Source: Deltaproteobacteria bacterium
GTDB taxonomy: Bacteria > JAUYMQ01
DNA: 6,090 nt
Direction of reading: 5' to 3'
Assembly: GCA_030698575.1 (NCBI GenBank)
Contig: JAUYMQ010000193.1
Span: 1 to 6,090 of the forward strand
The position numbers were made by a program, and so were the translations under genes. Positions 3 through 6,090 of this stretch are shown here, in pieces. Numbering within the stretch: position 1 is the first letter of the stretch; each line of letters begins with the position of its first letter. The notes under the pieces were generated by a model that made no database searches, was not told where the DNA came from, and saw only the letters and a program-made list of their open reading frames with translations.

Positions 3-962
3 TGGCCGCTCACGAGCTCCAGGGTGAACGGCATGCCGGACTTCGCACCTGCGAATGAGGCATTTCTCTGGATGAACCAAGCTACCGAGGATCCGGGCGG
101 CGTTCAGAATCCCGAGATGAAACCTGCTTACGGTGTCATCGCGCCATGGCACTTCGGGCCATGGCTCAATTACATCGCGGAAAGACCGGCGCTGGCAACG
201 CCGTTCATTCTCTCCGTAAAGGAGCAGGAAGCGATCCGGATGAGCATCGATTTCTTTTTAGCGACGGAAGAGATGGAAGCGGTGAAGCTCGCTGAGAATC
301 AGGATCTCCGGTACGTGGTCGTCAGGGAAATCGACCCCTTCCTACCGACGTACCTGGAAGTTCAAGGCCGATCGATGGCTGATTTCGTCGGAGCGACAAA
401 ATCTCTGGGTGATGACGCGCTCCACTATGCCGCCGTCTACTATCGCACCATGACTAACCAGATGCTCCTGCTCGACGGATGCCGCGAGGAGCGCCTTGGT
501 TTACCGGGACTCGGACAGTTTCGCATCGTTTACGAATCTTCCTACCATTTTCAAAGGTCTGTTGGGCTCCTGGACGGTTCCTCAAAGGCTCCGCCCCTCG
601 GAGTCAGCAGCGTGAAAATATTCGAAAGAATGAAGGGCGCGCGACTGGAGGGGATGGGAGCGCCCTTGGAAGAAGTAGTTGCCCGTTTGCGGGTGCGGAC
701 CAACCAGGGAAGGGTGTTCGTATACGAGAAGGGAGTTCGGAGCGACGAGACTGGGCGCTTCTCCATGCGCGTGCCCTATGCGCCCGGCGAGAAGTGGGAG
801 GGCGGGCTGACCCGCGCGCTGGGGCTTTACGAGATTACCGGCGTCGGGGGAAGTGCTCGCACCGCGGTGACCGAGGAGCAGGTGCGCCTCGGGGCGCGCG
901 TGGAGGTCGGGGCCCTCAAGCACGGGGCGGCCGAGGCGGCTCCTGAGGGGAATTCACTTTGA
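3..962 (+). CDS. Oligosaccharyltransferase, STT3/AglB-like, C-terminal part (5' end outside window)
   Basis: The reading frame is open to the left edge, so this is the 3' part of a longer gene; the GTG at 24 and ATG at 33 are probably internal. No membrane helix is visible, which fits the soluble C-terminal domain of STT3/AglB enzymes, whose N-terminal half carries the helices and metal site. Supporting motifs, in order: FLWMNQATED (bases 63-92), like the helix before the signature motif; APWHFGPW (141-164) followed by a YIAERP segment, at the place of the family's WWDYG acceptor-recognition motif; QMLLLDG then FRIVYES (519-539); VKIFERMKGA (612-641); TNQGRVFVY (699-725); and a beta-rich RVPY tail. 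The order and spacing resemble archaeal AglB C-termini. The family moves a polyprenyl-linked glycan to Asn of exported proteins. The canonical Asp of WWDYG is His here. Sure of the family, less sure of activity and acceptor. The 5' two thirds is less GC-rich than the 3' end. Confidence 0.75.
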   Translation, partial: WPLTSSRVNGMPDFAPANEAFLWMNQATEDPGGVQNPEMKPAYGVIAPWHFGPWLNYIAERPALATPFILSVKEQEAIRMSIDFFLATEEMEAVKLAENQDLRYVVVREIDPFLPTYLEVQGRSMADFVGATKSLGDDALHYAAVYYRTMTNQMLLLDGCREERLGLPGLGQFRIVYESSYHFQRSVGLLDGSSKAPPLGVSSVKIFERMKGARLEGMGAPLEEVVARLRVRTNQGRVFVYEKGVRSDETGRFSMRVPYAPGEKWEGGLTRALGLYEITGVGGSARTAVTEEQVRLGARVEVGALKHGAAEAAPEGNSL

Positions 963-987
963 CAAGCCAGGCGAAGTGCTTTAAAAC
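959..987 (+). promoter_or_regulatory. Candidate sigma70-type promoter before wecE
   Basis: A perfect TTGACA hexamer at 959-964 overlaps the stop codon of the oligosaccharyltransferase gene. It is followed, after exactly 17 bases, by TAAAAC at 982-987, which matches the TATAAT consensus at four of six positions. Transcription would begin near base 994, almost on the wecE start codon, so a transcript from here would be leaderless or nearly so and would lose the ribosome binding site at 991-995. That makes a chance match quite possible. If real, it would let genes 2-5 be expressed apart from the upstream gene. Confidence 0.3.
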
Positions 988-990
988 TCT

Positions 991-995
991 AGGGA
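991..995 (+). promoter_or_regulatory. Ribosome binding site of wecE
   Basis: AGGGA lies one base before the ATG at 997 and four bases before a second in-frame ATG at 1000. The spacing favours 1000 as the true start; the two choices differ by one methionine. Confidence 0.45.
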
Positions 996-996
996 A

Positions 997-2169
997 ATGA
1001 TGAGCAAGCGCGCCGACATCCCCGAGTCCAAGGTCATTCCCTTCTCGGCGCCGAGCCTGGGAGAGGACGAGGTCCGGGCCGTCGCGGAAGCACTTCGGTC
1101 AGGGGCCGTGGGCGGCGACGGGCCCCTCGGCAAGGCCCTCGCCCTTCGAATGGGCGAGCGCTTCGGCATCCGCCACGTCCTGCTGACCCCCTCGGCCACC
1201 CACGCACTCGAGCTGGCCCTCCAGGTTGCCGATATCGGTCCTGACGACGAGGTAGTCCTCCCCAGCTTCACTTTCGTCTCCGTCGCGAACGCCGTGCTTC
1301 GACGTGGCGCGCGTCCGGTGTTCGCTGAAATCTCCGACGCGACGCTCGATCTCGATCCCGACCGGCTGGAGGAAGTCGTCACGCCGCGGACCCGCGCCGT
1401 CATTCCGGCGCACTACGGCGGCGTGGGAGCGCCCATGGAACGCTACCAGGAGATCGCCGGGAGGCAGGGCATCCGCGTGATCGAGGACGCGGCGCAGGGC
1501 CTGGGCGCCCGGCGAGGCGGACGATGGCTCGGCGGCTTCGGTGACATGGCGGGTTTCAGCTTTCACGAGACCAAGAATCTCACCTGCGGCGAAGGGGGCG
1601 CGTTCCTGACCCAGCGCGACGACCTGTTCAAGCGCGCGGAGGTCATCTACGAGAAAGGGACGAACCGCTCCCAGTTCTTCCGCGGCGAGGTCGACAAGTA
1701 CACCTGGATCGGGCCGGGCGGAAGCTACGTGCTCTCCGACATCCTGGCGGCACTGCTCGGTGTGCAGCTTGACAGGATGGAAGCGCTGCACGCCGCCCGG
1801 CGCCGCGTCTTCGAGCGCTATCAGGCGGGGCTCTCCGATCTTGCACGCGAGGGAAAGCTCCAGCTTCCCGTCATTCCGGACGTGTGCGAGCCGAACTGGC
1901 ATGTCTTCTACGTCCGCCTTCCCTCGGGCGAGGAACGCGACCGGGTGCTGGCGGAGATGAGGCGGCGAGGCATCATGTGCACTTTCCACTTCGTGCCGCT
2001 TCACAGCTCGCCATTCGGCAGCGCCCAGCTCGGCTACCGCGAGGGGGATCTGCCGGTGACCGAGGCCGTGAGCCGGACCCTGCTGCGCCTGCCGCTTCAC
2101 GCCGGGCTGACCGACGAGGATGTGTCTCGCGTGATCGAGGCGATGGGGGAGGTTGTTCGTGGCCGCTGA
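997..2169 (+). CDS. wecE: dTDP-4-amino-4,6-dideoxygalactose transaminase (WecE/RffA)
   Basis: A 390-residue PLP-dependent aminotransferase of the DegT/DnrJ/EryC1/StrS family. WecE converts dTDP-4-keto-6-deoxy-D-glucose plus glutamate to dTDP-4-amino-4,6-dideoxy-D-galactose (dTDP-Fuc4N) in the cytoplasm. The match to E. coli WecE, as recalled, is close along the whole length: VIPFSAPS (13-20) at the N-terminus, LLTPSATHALELA (62-74), DEVVLPSFTFVS (84-95), VIEDAAQG (161-168), where D164 should pair with the PLP ring nitrogen, and FSFHETKN (187-194), where K193 should form the Schiff base. The stretch GTNRSQFFRGEVDKYTW (221-237) is nearly identical to E. coli WecE and is more specific than the family fold, separating it from ArnB-, PglE- or PseC-type enzymes. 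Length is near the usual 376. It leads an overlapping gene set that includes a WecD-like acetyltransferase. No rmlA/rmlB genes for its substrate are in the window. The start is ATG 997 or 1000. Confidence 0.92.
   Translation: MMSKRADIPESKVIPFSAPSLGEDEVRAVAEALRSGAVGGDGPLGKALALRMGERFGIRHVLLTPSATHALELALQVADIGPDDEVVLPSFTFVSVANAVLRRGARPVFAEISDATLDLDPDRLEEVVTPRTRAVIPAHYGGVGAPMERYQEIAGRQGIRVIEDAAQGLGARRGGRWLGGFGDMAGFSFHETKNLTCGEGGAFLTQRDDLFKRAEVIYEKGTNRSQFFRGEVDKYTWIGPGGSYVLSDILAALLGVQLDRMEALHAARRRVFERYQAGLSDLAREGKLQLPVIPDVCEPNWHVFYVRLPSGEERDRVLAEMRRRGIMCTFHFVPLHSSPFGSAQLGYREGDLPVTEAVSRTLLRLPLHAGLTDEDVSRVIEAMGEVVRGR
2145..2152 (+). promoter_or_regulatory. Strong ribosome binding site inside wecE for the glycosyltransferase
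   Basis: GGGGGAGG lies near the 3' end of wecE. It is directly against a TTG (2153), six bases before a GTG (2159) and 27 bases before the first ATG (2180), all in one frame. The spacing supports GTG 2159 as the start of the downstream gene. Confidence 0.55.
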
Positions 2170-3127
2170 TCGCTCCGCGATGGACGTCTCCGTCGTCGTC
2201 CCGGTCTATCAAAACGCCGGAACGCTCCGGGAACTTCACCGGCGCATTGCCAAGGTGCTGGACGACCGGGATCTGCGGTTCGAGATCATCTTTGTCGACG
2301 ACGGGAGCAAGGACGGCTCCTGGGACGCGCTCAAGGCGCTTGCGAAGGAAGACGCGCGGGTCCGCCCCCTTCGATTCGTCCGCAACTTCGGCCAGGCCGC
2401 CGCTCTCAGCGCGGGCTTCGAACGGGTGCAGGGGCGGGTGGCCGTCACCATCGATGCGGATCTTCAGAACCTGCCCGAAGACATTCCCGCTCTTCTCGAC
2501 GAAATTGACCGCGGCTACGAATTCGTGAGCGGCTACCGCACGGAACGGGAAGATCACTATCTGTTCCGCGTTCTTCCGTCGCGGCTCCTGAATCGCCTCG
2601 TGCAGGCGACGATCGGGATTCCGCTCCGCGACTACGGCTGCGGGCTGAACGCGCTCAGCCGGCGGCTGGCGCTCGAGGTGCGGCACCATGGCGAGATGCG
2701 CCGCTTCCTGAAGCCGCTCGTGGTCATGCTGGCGGAGTCGGTCTCCGAGGTGCCTGTCCGCCAGGGCGGCAGCGGCGACCGCTCGCGCTACAGCTTCTCG
2801 AGCCTCGTGGGTCTTCAGCTCGACTTCTTCACGGGTTTCTCCCGCAAGACCTTCCAGCGCATAGGGCTGTTCGGCGTTCTGATGGCGCTGGCGGGATTTC
2901 TCGGCGGACTGGTCTACGTCGCGATCCTGTTCGGATTCGGGCACCCGCTCGGCGGCCGTTTCCAGGCGCTGATCATTCTCGCCATGGTCCTGGGCCTGCA
3001 ACTGGTCGTGCTCGGGCTTCTCGGAGAGTTCATCGTGCGCATCTACCACCTCACGCAGGGGCAGCCGTTCTATCTCCTGAGAGAGAAGGACGAACGCGAG
3101 GCGCTTCGGGACGATGATGGGCCTTGA
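2159..3127 (+). CDS. Polyprenyl-phosphate glycosyltransferase, family 2 (ArnC/DPM1-like)
   Basis: A 322-residue GT2 (GT-A fold) enzyme expected to move a sugar from a nucleotide donor onto a polyprenyl phosphate, giving a monophosphate-linked sugar on the cytoplasmic face. Seen, numbered from GTG 2159: VSVVVPVYQN (about 11-19) at the first strand; VDDGS (46-50), binding the nucleotide; RNFGQAAALSAGF (75-87); the metal-binding DADLQNLPEDIP (99-110); and DYGCGLNAL (158-166), near ArnC's DYGC motif. SRYSFSSL (209-216) precedes two hydrophobic helices at about 236-260 and 269-289, and GLLGEFIVRIY (286-296) ends the second, all as in ArnC (322 residues). Gene context, between WecE and WecD homologues, suggests Fuc4N or Fuc4NAc as the sugar rather than ArnC's formyl-aminoarabinose; no other arn gene is present. 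GTG 2159 was chosen for its ribosome binding site and gives an 11-base overlap with wecE; TTG 2153 and ATG 2180 are alternatives. Donor sugar is unknown. Confidence 0.85.
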   Translation: MAADRSAMDVSVVVPVYQNAGTLRELHRRIAKVLDDRDLRFEIIFVDDGSKDGSWDALKALAKEDARVRPLRFVRNFGQAAALSAGFERVQGRVAVTIDADLQNLPEDIPALLDEIDRGYEFVSGYRTEREDHYLFRVLPSRLLNRLVQATIGIPLRDYGCGLNALSRRLALEVRHHGEMRRFLKPLVVMLAESVSEVPVRQGGSGDRSRYSFSSLVGLQLDFFTGFSRKTFQRIGLFGVLMALAGFLGGLVYVAILFGFGHPLGGRFQALIILAMVLGLQLVVLGLLGEFIVRIYHLTQGQPFYLLREKDEREALRDDDGP

Positions 3128-4124
3128 AACGAGAGTCTTCACGGCTGCCGACGCCGGGGCGGTGCTGAAGCTCACCCGCGAGCAGTCCTATCCCGAGTTC
3201 CGCTGGTACCGCCTGACGAAGCAGGACTTCGCCGTCGACTACCTGGCCTGGCAGGTCGAGCGCTTTCTGGGCGAGGAGGCCTGCTTCGGGCGGGTTGTGG
3301 TGAAGGAGGGCGAGATCGTCGGTTTCGTCGGCGCGGCCCGATCGCCCTGGGAGTCGGAGCACTTCGGCCTTCCCATGGCGACCATCGCCCATATCTTCGC
3401 GCGCGGCGAAGGAAACGAGCGGGCTGCAATCGCCGCCGCTCTCCTGGCCTCCCTGGAGGGCGACGCGCGCGATCGCGGCTTTCGGCATCTGCGCGGCATG
3501 AGCGACATCGAAGACACGGCGCTCCTCCTGGCGCTCCAGGAGCGCAAGTTCCTGCTGGTCGACACGCTCGTCACCTATATCAGCGACAACCAGCGCCCGC
3601 CCGCGGCGCCTCCGCCGGTCGATCCTTCCTTTACGTTCGAGACCTACCGCAAGGAGGACTTCGGCCGCATCGATCCGGGCGAGATCTCTCACATCGCGAA
3701 GTTCATGCGCGAGGCCTACCGCATCGATCGCTTTCACGCCGATCCGCGCCTTCCGCGGGAGAAGTGCCACGAGGTCTACGTCGAATGGTTTCGGAACGTC
3801 TTCAACGGGAACTGGGCGGACGGCGTTCACCTGCTTCGCAAGGAAGGGCGCGTGGTCGGGTTCCTCGGTTTCCAGTACTTCGCTGAGATCGAGGCGCGCT
3901 ACGGCTCTAAAATCATCGGGCGCGGGCTGTCGGCCGTGCTGCCCGAGGGCCGCGGCGGGTATTCGGCGCTCACGCATGCCACGGTCAATCTTTGCCCTTA
4001 CGGCAGCCGCCACGCCGAGTTCGATTCCCAGATCCAGAACTTCCCCGTCATAAACGTATGGGTGCGCAACGGCCTCTCCTTCGCGCGGGGCCGCTACACG
4101 CTGCACCGCTGGCTGGACCGATGA
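3114..4124 (+). CDS. wecD: WecD/RffC-like GNAT acetyltransferase (dTDP-Fuc4N N-acetyltransferase)
   Basis: A 336-residue cytoplasmic protein resembling WecD, which uses acetyl-CoA to turn dTDP-Fuc4N into dTDP-Fuc4NAc. Residues 79-85 (WESEHFG) correspond to the WecD-type W-x-S/N-x-x-F-G element near the N-terminus. DTLVTY (150-155) ends the degenerate first half. The second half is the GNAT-like part: RFHADP (206-211), YVEWFRN (222-228), VVGFLGF (247-253), GRGGYSALTHA (279-289) as the likely acyl-CoA-binding turn and helix, then Q306, N309, N314 and G320 in the place of WecD's TQ-x-x-N...G ending, and LHRWL at the C-terminus. E. coli WecD has 224 residues; the roughly 75 extra N-terminal residues here contain a strand-like VVVKEGEIVGFVGA (61-74), suggesting a second, degenerate GNAT-like unit. 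It overlaps the glycosyltransferase by 14 bases and the hydrolase by 4. WecE in the same operon supplies the expected substrate, which is the main support for the specific name. ATG 3117 is an alternative start. Confidence 0.72.
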   Translation: MMGLETRVFTAADAGAVLKLTREQSYPEFRWYRLTKQDFAVDYLAWQVERFLGEEACFGRVVVKEGEIVGFVGAARSPWESEHFGLPMATIAHIFARGEGNERAAIAAALLASLEGDARDRGFRHLRGMSDIEDTALLLALQERKFLLVDTLVTYISDNQRPPAAPPPVDPSFTFETYRKEDFGRIDPGEISHIAKFMREAYRIDRFHADPRLPREKCHEVYVEWFRNVFNGNWADGVHLLRKEGRVVGFLGFQYFAEIEARYGSKIIGRGLSAVLPEGRGGYSALTHATVNLCPYGSRHAEFDSQIQNFPVINVWVRNGLSFARGRYTLHRWLDR

Positions 4125-5161
4125 AGTCCACGACTGTGCTGGTCCTCCTGTCGCTGGTGTTCGGACTTCTGCTCTGCGAGACAATCCTCCGCGCCTCGGG
4201 GTACCTGCGCAGCCGATACCTCGTCCCTGATCGACCATTCTTCGTCGTGGATCCCGATCCTCGCATAGGCTACAGCCTGAAGCCTGGATATCGCGGAAAT
4301 CCAACATTCTTCGACTTCAGGCAAAGGGAGTACAGGTTCCCACGGGTGGATTACACCGTGAACACCCAGGGCTTTAGAGGGCCGGAGTGGCTCCCCCTGG
4401 ACGAGGGGGTGTTTCGCATTGCGGTGGTGGGAGATTCGATGGCCTTCGGCTTGGGTGTCGAAGAGGGTGAAGCGTTTCCGCGCATTCTCGAACGTGATCT
4501 GAATGGCTGGGCGGTGGAGAAGGGAATCGAACGCAGGTTTCGTGTCTACAATTTGGGAGTGCCTGGATACAACCTCGAGCAGGAGTACTTCACATGGTCT
4601 CGCTGGGGGAAGATCCTGAAACCGCAGATGGTAATACACGTGGTCTATATAAACGACTGCGAGGCGCAACTGCATTACGCACTCGGGACCATCGTGCGGG
4701 AATTCGGACAGAGGTTCCCTTCACACCTCCTCTTCTTGGCTAACGTTCTCCGGACGAACATTAGGTCTTCTCCGCCTGGGATCCGCGAGGGTACGGATCT
4801 CGAGGCGTGCCAAGACTATCTCAAGCAGTTCGGGGAGGGCGCCAAGGCTATCGGTGCAGACTACTGGGGTTTCGTTTTGGTGCCGGTGCAATATCTGAAG
4901 ACTCTACAGGGGACGGATAAAGAGAAGATCGGAAGGTTGAACGCCTTTCGGAGGAGCATGGAGGGCGCATTTACTGCGAGCGGCGGACAGGCCCAAGACG
5001 TGATTGAAGTTCTTCTCGGTTATCCGCCTTACCAATTCCTGATCGATCCCCAAGACGACCACTTCAACGCGAAAGGGCATGTCGTTATCGCCGATGCGTT
5101 GAAGCGGAAGGTTATCGAGAACTACGCCGCCACTTGGCGGGAATCCGGCCAGAAAAGTTGA
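4121..5161 (+). CDS. Membrane-anchored SGNH/GDSL-family hydrolase
   Basis: A 346-residue protein starting at ATG 4121, which overlaps the preceding stop as ATGA. Residues 4-19 form one hydrophobic helix followed by ETILRASG, the usual membrane anchor of this group; C19 lacks a proper lipobox (preceded by L-L-L), so a lipoprotein is unlikely. Seen: VNTQGFRGPE (80-89), a conserved lead-in; IAVVGDSMAFGLGV (100-113) with S106 as probable nucleophile; NLGVPGYN (144-151) with a block II glycine; YIND (176-179) with N178 of block III; and DDHFNAKGH (312-320), where D312/D313 and H314 should complete the catalytic set. The catalytic part should face the periplasm or outside. Relatives act as esterases, deacetylases or O-acetyltransferase partners on glycans; which applies is not visible. 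Position at the operon end suggests trimming or acylating the glycan. From about base 4210 the composition drops (two hand-counted lines, 4621-4680 and 4861-4920, are both 50% GC) against about 63% in the preceding gene. Confidence 0.78.
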   Translation: MKSTTVLVLLSLVFGLLLCETILRASGYLRSRYLVPDRPFFVVDPDPRIGYSLKPGYRGNPTFFDFRQREYRFPRVDYTVNTQGFRGPEWLPLDEGVFRIAVVGDSMAFGLGVEEGEAFPRILERDLNGWAVEKGIERRFRVYNLGVPGYNLEQEYFTWSRWGKILKPQMVIHVVYINDCEAQLHYALGTIVREFGQRFPSHLLFLANVLRTNIRSSPPGIREGTDLEACQDYLKQFGEGAKAIGADYWGFVLVPVQYLKTLQGTDKEKIGRLNAFRRSMEGAFTASGGQAQDVIEVLLGYPPYQFLIDPQDDHFNAKGHVVIADALKRKVIENYAATWRESGQKS

Positions 5162-5183: not shown

Positions 5184-6090
5184 TCAGTTCACCCGCCGCG
5201 ACTTGTCCTTCCAGAAAGGCTCACGCAGTTCGCGCTTCAACACCTTGCCTGACGGGTTCTTCGGGAGCACTTCCGCGAAGTCGACCGAACGCGGGCGCTT
5301 GTAGCCGGCGAGCTTGCCCTTGCAGTACGCCATGACGTCGTCCGCGGTTGTCTTGGCGCCCGGCTTCAGGACCACGATCGCCTTGATCTCCTCGCCCCAC
5401 TGCGCGGAGGGGATGCCGATGCAGGCGGCGTCGGCGATGTCTGGGTGCGAGAAGAGGACCTCCTCGATCTCGCGCGGATAGACGTTCTCGCCGCCCGAGA
5501 CGATCATGTCCTTGATGCGATCCTTGATGTAGATGTACCCCTCCTCGTCCATCTCACCGAGATCGCCCGTGTGCAGCCAGCCGTCCTTCAGCGTCTCAGC
5601 CGTGGCCTCGGGGAGCTTCCAGTAGCCCTTCATCACCTGCTCACCCCGTCCGACGATCTCGCCCACCTGGCCGTGAGGTAACGCGTTTCCCTGCTCGTCG
5701 ACGATTCTCATCTCGGTGCCGAAGATCTCTCGACCGCAGGACTCGAGGCGCCGGACCTTTTCCGGGGGGCCGTCAAGCACATGGTCCTCGGGACGCAGCA
5801 TGGTCAGCACCGCCACCGACTCCGTCTGTCCGAAGCCCTGAACGAAGTTGCACTTGAACAGCTGCATCGCCTGGCGGAGCACCTCGAGCGGGATTGCCGA
5901 CGCCCCGTAGATCACGTAGCGGAGCGTGCCGAAATTCACTTTCTCGATCCCCGGCATGTTGAGCAGGAAGAGGATCATCGCCGGCACGAGGAGCGTGTGG
6001 GTGACCCCCTCCTCGTTGAATGCATGGACGACCTCGGGAGGGATGAAATCCTTCTTGATGACGAGCGTGGCCCCGCCCGCCAGAGCCGAC
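5184..6090 (-). CDS. Acyl-CoA synthetase (AMP-forming), C-terminal part (5' end outside window)
   Basis: An adenylate-forming enzyme that activates a carboxylic acid with ATP and joins it to CoA. The frame stays open from the stop at 5184-5186 to the right edge (about 301 residues; GTG at 5985-5987 is internal), so roughly the first 200-250 residues of a typical 500-560 residue enzyme are missing. Order of motifs, reading on the - strand: GATLVIKKDF and VTHTLLVPAMILFLL near the window edge; YGASAIP; VQGFGQTES (the Y/F-G-x-TE motif, contacting adenine and metal); GWLHTGDLGEMDEEGYIYI with the ATP-ribose Asp; KDRIKDMIVSGGENVYPREIE, the hinge motif leading into the C-terminal domain; WGEEIKAIVV; and NPSGKVLKRELR with the catalytic lysine. 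This pattern fits medium/long-chain fatty-acid or related acid ligases (FadD/AlkK-like); the substrate cannot be read from this part. It converges on the glycan operon with 22 bases between stops and has no obvious link to it. Confidence 0.9.
   Translation of the reverse strand, partial: SALAGGATLVIKKDFIPPEVVHAFNEEGVTHTLLVPAMILFLLNMPGIEKVNFGTLRYVIYGASAIPLEVLRQAMQLFKCNFVQGFGQTESVAVLTMLRPEDHVLDGPPEKVRRLESCGREIFGTEMRIVDEQGNALPHGQVGEIVGRGEQVMKGYWKLPEATAETLKDGWLHTGDLGEMDEEGYIYIKDRIKDMIVSGGENVYPREIEEVLFSHPDIADAACIGIPSAQWGEEIKAIVVLKPGAKTTADDVMAYCKGKLAGYKRPRSVDFAEVLPKNPSGKVLKRELREPFWKDKSRRVN

Follow-up and report, generated by a model that had tools for sequence, protein, structure and literature searches.

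The window analysed here is the whole of a 6,090-base contig (C302) from a source genome of 4.13 Mb in 653 contigs. Five open reading frames lie in a row on the plus strand between positions 3 and 5161, just as the first-pass annotation had described. The first (3..962) belongs to an AglB-like GT66 transferase, of which it covers the C-terminal 319 residues. The 5' end is open at the contig edge, and as the contig starts inside the gene, the catalytic N-terminal half of the enzyme is outside the window. It is followed by genes for a WecE-like dTDP-4-keto-6-deoxyglucose 4-aminotransferase of the DegT family (997..2169), an ArnC-like GT2 polyprenyl-phosphate glycosyltransferase (2180..3127 from an ATG start, with a TTG at 2153 also possible), a WecD-like GNAT acyltransferase (3114..4124) and an SGNH/GDSL hydrolase (4121..5161). 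An AMP-dependent acyl-CoA ligase on the minus strand (5184..6089), truncated at the contig end, has no clear link to the row. Four of the genes had initially been described as having overlapping ends. This is true of the GT2 and GNAT genes, which overlap by 14 nt, and of the GNAT and SGNH genes, which overlap by 4 nt (ATGA). The wecE and GT2 genes overlap with the TTG start only, there being a 10-nt gap with the ATG, and the GT66 gene is separated from wecE, on the same strand, by 34 nt.

The family calls made in the first-pass annotation (transferase, WecE, ArnC-like GT2, WecD-like and SGNH) were borne out by Pfam/NCBIfam and PDB matches. The window transferase matches AglB_L1 (2.7e-17; residues 212-299, nt 636-899) and the AglB_core-like model. 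The best PDB match to a GT66 family profile was A. fulgidus AglB-L (5gmy), and the predicted model of the window fragment matched AglB-L structures (Foldseek, 7e9s, E 9e-18), ie the protein has the GT66 fold with the C-terminal domain of AglB. At the position of the (S/A)WWDYG motif of AglB, the window reads APWHFG (nt 141-158). WWDYG is absent from the window protein and from all 54 aligned bacterial rows, some of them from close species, and is kept in 4/4 archaeal controls in the same alignment. In its place the bacterial relatives, which are mostly 700-800 aa, usually read x-W-x-x-G-H. The metal-site and catalytic motifs of these relatives (first DxD, DHH and TIxE-type) are kept, in the half of the protein that lies outside the window copy.

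The pocket that receives the Ser/Thr of the sequon is built from WWDYG and the DK/MI motif (PMC8342417, PMC3703281). Because WWDYG is missing, the window and bacterial GT66 enzymes are probably not N-X-S/T oligosaccharyltransferases, and their sugars would go to other acceptors. A classical N-OST identity was rejected on the same ground, and with it the name 'oligosaccharyltransferase' in its N-glycosylation sense, which had been given to the window enzyme; the motif is missing from every bacterial relative examined. Monophosphate donors had also been ascribed to some archaeal AglBs. This is correct for the Euryarchaeota (PMC8342417, PMC4476749), and AglB-L is the nearest solved relative of the window protein.

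The source genome has further AglB-like pieces, N-terminal at C407:93-809 (L072) and C-terminal at C524:57-377 (L073). The C407 fragment keeps DxD/DHH and bears the motifs DPYYHLRR and DHH.

The WecE-like protein scored 437 bits with NF008687 (cut-off 375) and 388 with TIGR02379, where the cut-off is 434.85. Its best PDB matches were WecE 6blg and 4piw/4zah, and it is 42% identical to E. coli WecE, compared to 35% for ArnB. The best curated model for the GT2 protein was ArnC, at 197.9 bits, well under the equivalog cut-off of 529. The best PDB match was ArnC 9hwj (1.9e-53), followed by GtrB sll0501. The protein is 35% identical to E. coli ArnC, carries the motifs DDGS and DADLQ, and has the polyprenyl-phosphate GT2 fold, with a length and a hydrophobic C-terminal region corresponding to ArnC. 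In a tree it is placed with the ArnC-type enzymes and away from GtrB.

The GNAT protein gave a weak match to PRK10975 (WecD) of 1.6e-5, or 24.8 bits with a cut-off of 219. A profile of the protein and 15 homologues had WecD (2fs5/2ft0) as its best PDB match, at 7.4e-29 over most of the length and 14 orders of magnitude better than any other GNAT. The acetyl-CoA loop is shortened in the window (3864-4124), as it is in L069, and the acyl donor is therefore uncertain and may differ. The single-sequence AlphaFold model of this protein was unusable (pLDDT 40). The last protein of the row matched GDSL/SGNH below the Pfam cut-off and no PDB relative was found, but the catalytic blocks GDS, ND and DxxH are present and the N-terminal segment is hydrophobic. 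Its putative membership of the system comes from gene coupling only.

A search of the ORFs and domains of the contig revealed no orthologues of ArnA, ArnD or ArnT. WecA, WecF and WzyE were also absent from it, ArnE/F were not seen, and it has no flippase or pilin gene and no membrane transferase other than the GT66 enzyme. RmlB, a gene that the first-pass annotation had named as one to look for, was found elsewhere in the source genome (C436, 457 bits, over the cut-off), and the substrate of WecE can therefore be made.

The recurrence of the row was determined in genomes which share only their domain with the source, none being from the window's phylum; a search for named relatives with alignment A3 turned up just 8 loci, none of them from a genome closely related to the source. 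A match to the GNAT protein was present in 28/386 genomes, the source genome included, and in none of the viral contigs scanned. Genes for GT2 and WecE both adjoin that for the GNAT in G024, in G310 (two loci) and in G295, so that outside the window the trio is found at four loci in three unrelated genomes. The three genes are directly adjacent there, as a cassette without other sugar genes. A PMT_2 protein adjoins the trio in G024 and a YfhO protein does so at one of the G310 loci. At several further loci the GNAT gene has a GT2 neighbour alone, without WecE. The SGNH gene was not seen at the other trio loci. Of the five genes whose co-conservation the first-pass annotation had wanted checked, the trio recurs at these loci, and GT66, GT2 and WecE occur together in a further genome, G104.

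A tree that also includes ArnC and phage GtrB places the GT2 proteins of G024, G310 and G295 in one cluster, with that of G104 next to them (89/90). The window GT2 falls with ArnC and with the GT2 proteins of G276 and G138, which have GT66 neighbours (87/93, 83/88). It is not sister to the GT2 proteins of the other trios, and this suggests, with moderate tree support, that the trio was assembled independently in the window and in the other genomes. The base composition of the row is also uneven. The GT66 and SGNH genes have a GC content of 56-60% and enclose three genes of 65-68%, and GC3 is approximately 0.70 at 3-750 and 4250-5161, and 0.83-0.85 for the three genes in 997-4124. Because the GT66 and SGNH genes are the lower in GC, the row may be a mosaic or a recent juxtaposition. 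An assembly chimera within the transferase was considered and rejected, as the AglB_L1 match spans the GC step near nt 750.

A ten-member GT66 profile had matches in 16/386 broadly sampled genomes and in 36/195 genomes of one phylum, genomes of 12-13 Mb included. Among about 50 GT66 loci, linkage to WecE was observed in the window and in G104, and only in the window do wecE and wecD both lie beside the GT66 gene. The G104 locus has, on one strand, genes for two pilins, GT66, WbqC, an ArnC-like GT2, two sulfotransferase-like proteins, a methyltransferase, LPG_synthase_TM and WecE; no WecD-like gene was seen there. DPM1- or ArnC-like GT2 genes are found near many other GT66 genes.

A type IV pilin motif occurs within 5 kb of the GT66 gene at 12/51 loci. 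Other loci totalling 412 kb had no such motif, and far flanks totalling 250 kb had two. The enrichment over the 412-kb background has a P of about 5e-10, a value which the higher far-flank rate would weaken and which related genomes inflate. Because of these 12/51 loci, type IV pilins are the leading candidate acceptor for the wider GT66 family. The source genome has 15 prepilin-type matches, none of them on C302, C407 or C524. Dedicated accessory transferases, TfpO and TfpW, are known to glycosylate pilins (PMC11841053).

Since the trio recurs, and since G104 joins pilins, GT66, GT2 and WecE, the best reading of the trio is that it would produce an acylamino-dideoxyhexose linked to a lipid monophosphate. 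For the row as a whole we tentatively favour, at somewhat less than an even chance, an Arn-like cassette with a different sugar, feeding the AglB-like GT66 enzyme through a lipid monophosphate, with protein as the most likely acceptor. The RmlB encoded on another contig would supply dTDP-4-keto-6-deoxyglucose, from which WecE would form dTDP-Fuc4N or an isomer, and the WecD-like enzyme would N-acylate that product. The ArnC-like GT2 would then transfer the sugar to polyprenyl phosphate, leaving a single phosphate in the link, and the lipid-linked sugar would be flipped across the membrane. There the GT66 enzyme would pass it, alone or as a decoration, to an acceptor on the outside, with a protein as the likeliest one. 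A possible role of the SGNH hydrolase is to trim an acyl group, in which it would loosely resemble ArnD. In favour of this scheme are the closest solved relatives of the proteins (WecE, ArnC, WecD and AglB-L), the recurrence of the trio and its PMT_2 and YfhO neighbours, the G104 row, the GT2 genes near many other GT66 genes, the monophosphate donors of euryarchaeal AglBs, the presence of RmlB, the parallel arn gene order and the pilin genes near GT66 loci. Against it are the rarity of the GT66-WecE linkage, the scores below the ArnC and WecD equivalog cut-offs, the shortened GNAT loop, the position of the GT66 catalytic half outside the window, the lack of a pilin or flippase gene on the contig, the GC mosaic, and the GT2 proteins not being sisters. 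The idea of a set making and using polyprenyl-P-Fuc4NAc, put forward in the first-pass annotation, is partly supported. It gains from the ArnC-type GT2 that accompanies WecE and the WecD-like protein in the window, G024, G310 and G295, from the kinship of the transferase to AglB-L, from RmlB and from the G104 row, and is weakened by the missing WWDYG and by the rarity of GT66-WecE linkage.

By analogy, the row would work like the arn operon, which places L-Ara4N on lipid A, without being that operon. Common to both are a DegT aminotransferase, an N-acylating enzyme, a GT2 acting on undecaprenyl monophosphate and an outside GT-C transferase. The genes overlap in both, and the E. coli K-12 order, arnB-arnC-arnA-arnD-arnT, is parallel to that of the window. 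However, the window has WecE for ArnB, a WecD-like GNAT for the ArnA formyltransferase, SGNH for ArnD and an AglB-like GT66 for ArnT. The wec cluster for enterobacterial common antigen also has WecE and a WecD-like enzyme for dTDP-Fuc4NAc, but the window has an ArnC-type GT2 instead of WecF. A. fulgidus AglB-L, a GT66 N-OST, shares its fold and AglB_L1 with the window protein, and the DxD, DHH and TIxE-type motifs with the bacterial relatives; in the bacterial family WWDYG is reduced to W-x-x-G(H) and some members lie beside pilin genes. In CsbB/GtcA/YfhO systems a GT2 makes a C55-P-sugar which a multi-pass transferase uses outside, YfhO enzymes taking sugars from C55-P carriers, but the sugars are GlcNAc or other common ones and the acceptors are teichoic acids (PMC7389260). 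The gene for Pseudomonas TfpO or TfpW, like some of those for GT66, adjoins a pilin gene, but these transferases are unrelated to GT66 and their glycans are an O-antigen unit or D-Araf (PMC11841053).

Polyprenyl-P-Fuc4NAc might instead decorate LPS, O-antigen or another polysaccharide through another membrane transferase, the AglB-like gene being a neighbour with its own donor. The trio is indeed near PMT_2 or YfhO, not GT66, in G024 and G310, the GC of the GT66 and SGNH genes is unlike that of the trio, and linkage of GT66 to WecE is rare. We consider this explanation somewhat unlikely, as the contig is without another membrane transferase, only 34 nt separate the GT66 gene from wecE on one strand, and the linkage of GT66, GT2 and WecE is repeated in G104. 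Characterised ArnC and GtrB enzymes use UDP-sugars, and in enterobacterial common antigen WecF adds Fuc4NAc to a pyrophosphate-linked glycan. Both facts would agree with a soluble transferase elsewhere placing dTDP-Fuc4NAc in a pyrophosphate-linked repeat, moved by GT66 or a Wzy-type route, with the GT2 adding a UDP-derived side sugar. What makes this quite improbable is that the GT2, WecD-like and WecE genes of G024, G310 and G295 are directly adjacent, in a cassette free of further sugar genes.

The AglB_L1 domain and the fold match to AglB-L are what might be expected of classical N-glycosylation, in which an AglB-type OST moves a Fuc4NAc-containing glycan to the Asn of N-X-S/T. With the Ser/Thr pocket formed by WWDYG and DK/MI (PMC8342417, PMC3703281), and WWDYG missing from the window and 54/54 bacterial rows and present in 4/4 archaeal controls, this is very unlikely. 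Neighbours brought together by chance, with no joint function, are in our estimate very improbable, even with the GC mosaic, the fragmentary genome and the confinement of SGNH to the window among the trio loci. The starts and stops of GT2, GNAT and SGNH overlap, and chance does not account for the row, since homology is strong or at the family level for every ORF and genomes that are not related have the trio again.

The locus is plausibly a new combination of known parts, judging from its genes. A search of the open literature, which does not extend to subscription papers, found no description of the trio or of GT66-linked pilins; the first-pass annotation had not recognised the combination as a described one. 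It is possible, if rather doubtful, that many bacterial phyla have an AglB-derived GT66 without the N-X-S/T pocket, which is fed by lipid monophosphate and acts on other acceptors, type IV pilins included, the supply in the source genome and G104 being WecE and an ArnC-like GT2 (and in the source also a WecD-like enzyme). If true, bacteria would reuse the fold of the core N-glycosylation enzyme for acceptors chosen by another rule, and GT66 would receive an amino-sugar on a monophosphate lipid from a cassette that is portable. This would be a further, unrelated route to the glycosylation of pilins or surface proteins, and a GT66 without sequon recognition would be helpful for the origin of STT3/AglB specificity.

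Some other arrangements were seen at individual GT66 loci. At L096 (G276) and L156 (G138) the GT66 gene is followed by genes for a DPM1-like GT2, a DUF2304 protein and an ArnC-like GT2, and at L096 by an RmlC-like epimerase after these. A type IV pilin gene is directly 5' of GT66 at L091 (G365) and L157 (G097), and a YfhO gene directly 3' of it at L091. The GT66 gene of L152 (G402) is split between two reading frames, and two pilin-like genes lie no more than 5 kb away. AglB-like genes occur in adjacent pairs at L193 (G411) and L194 (G412).
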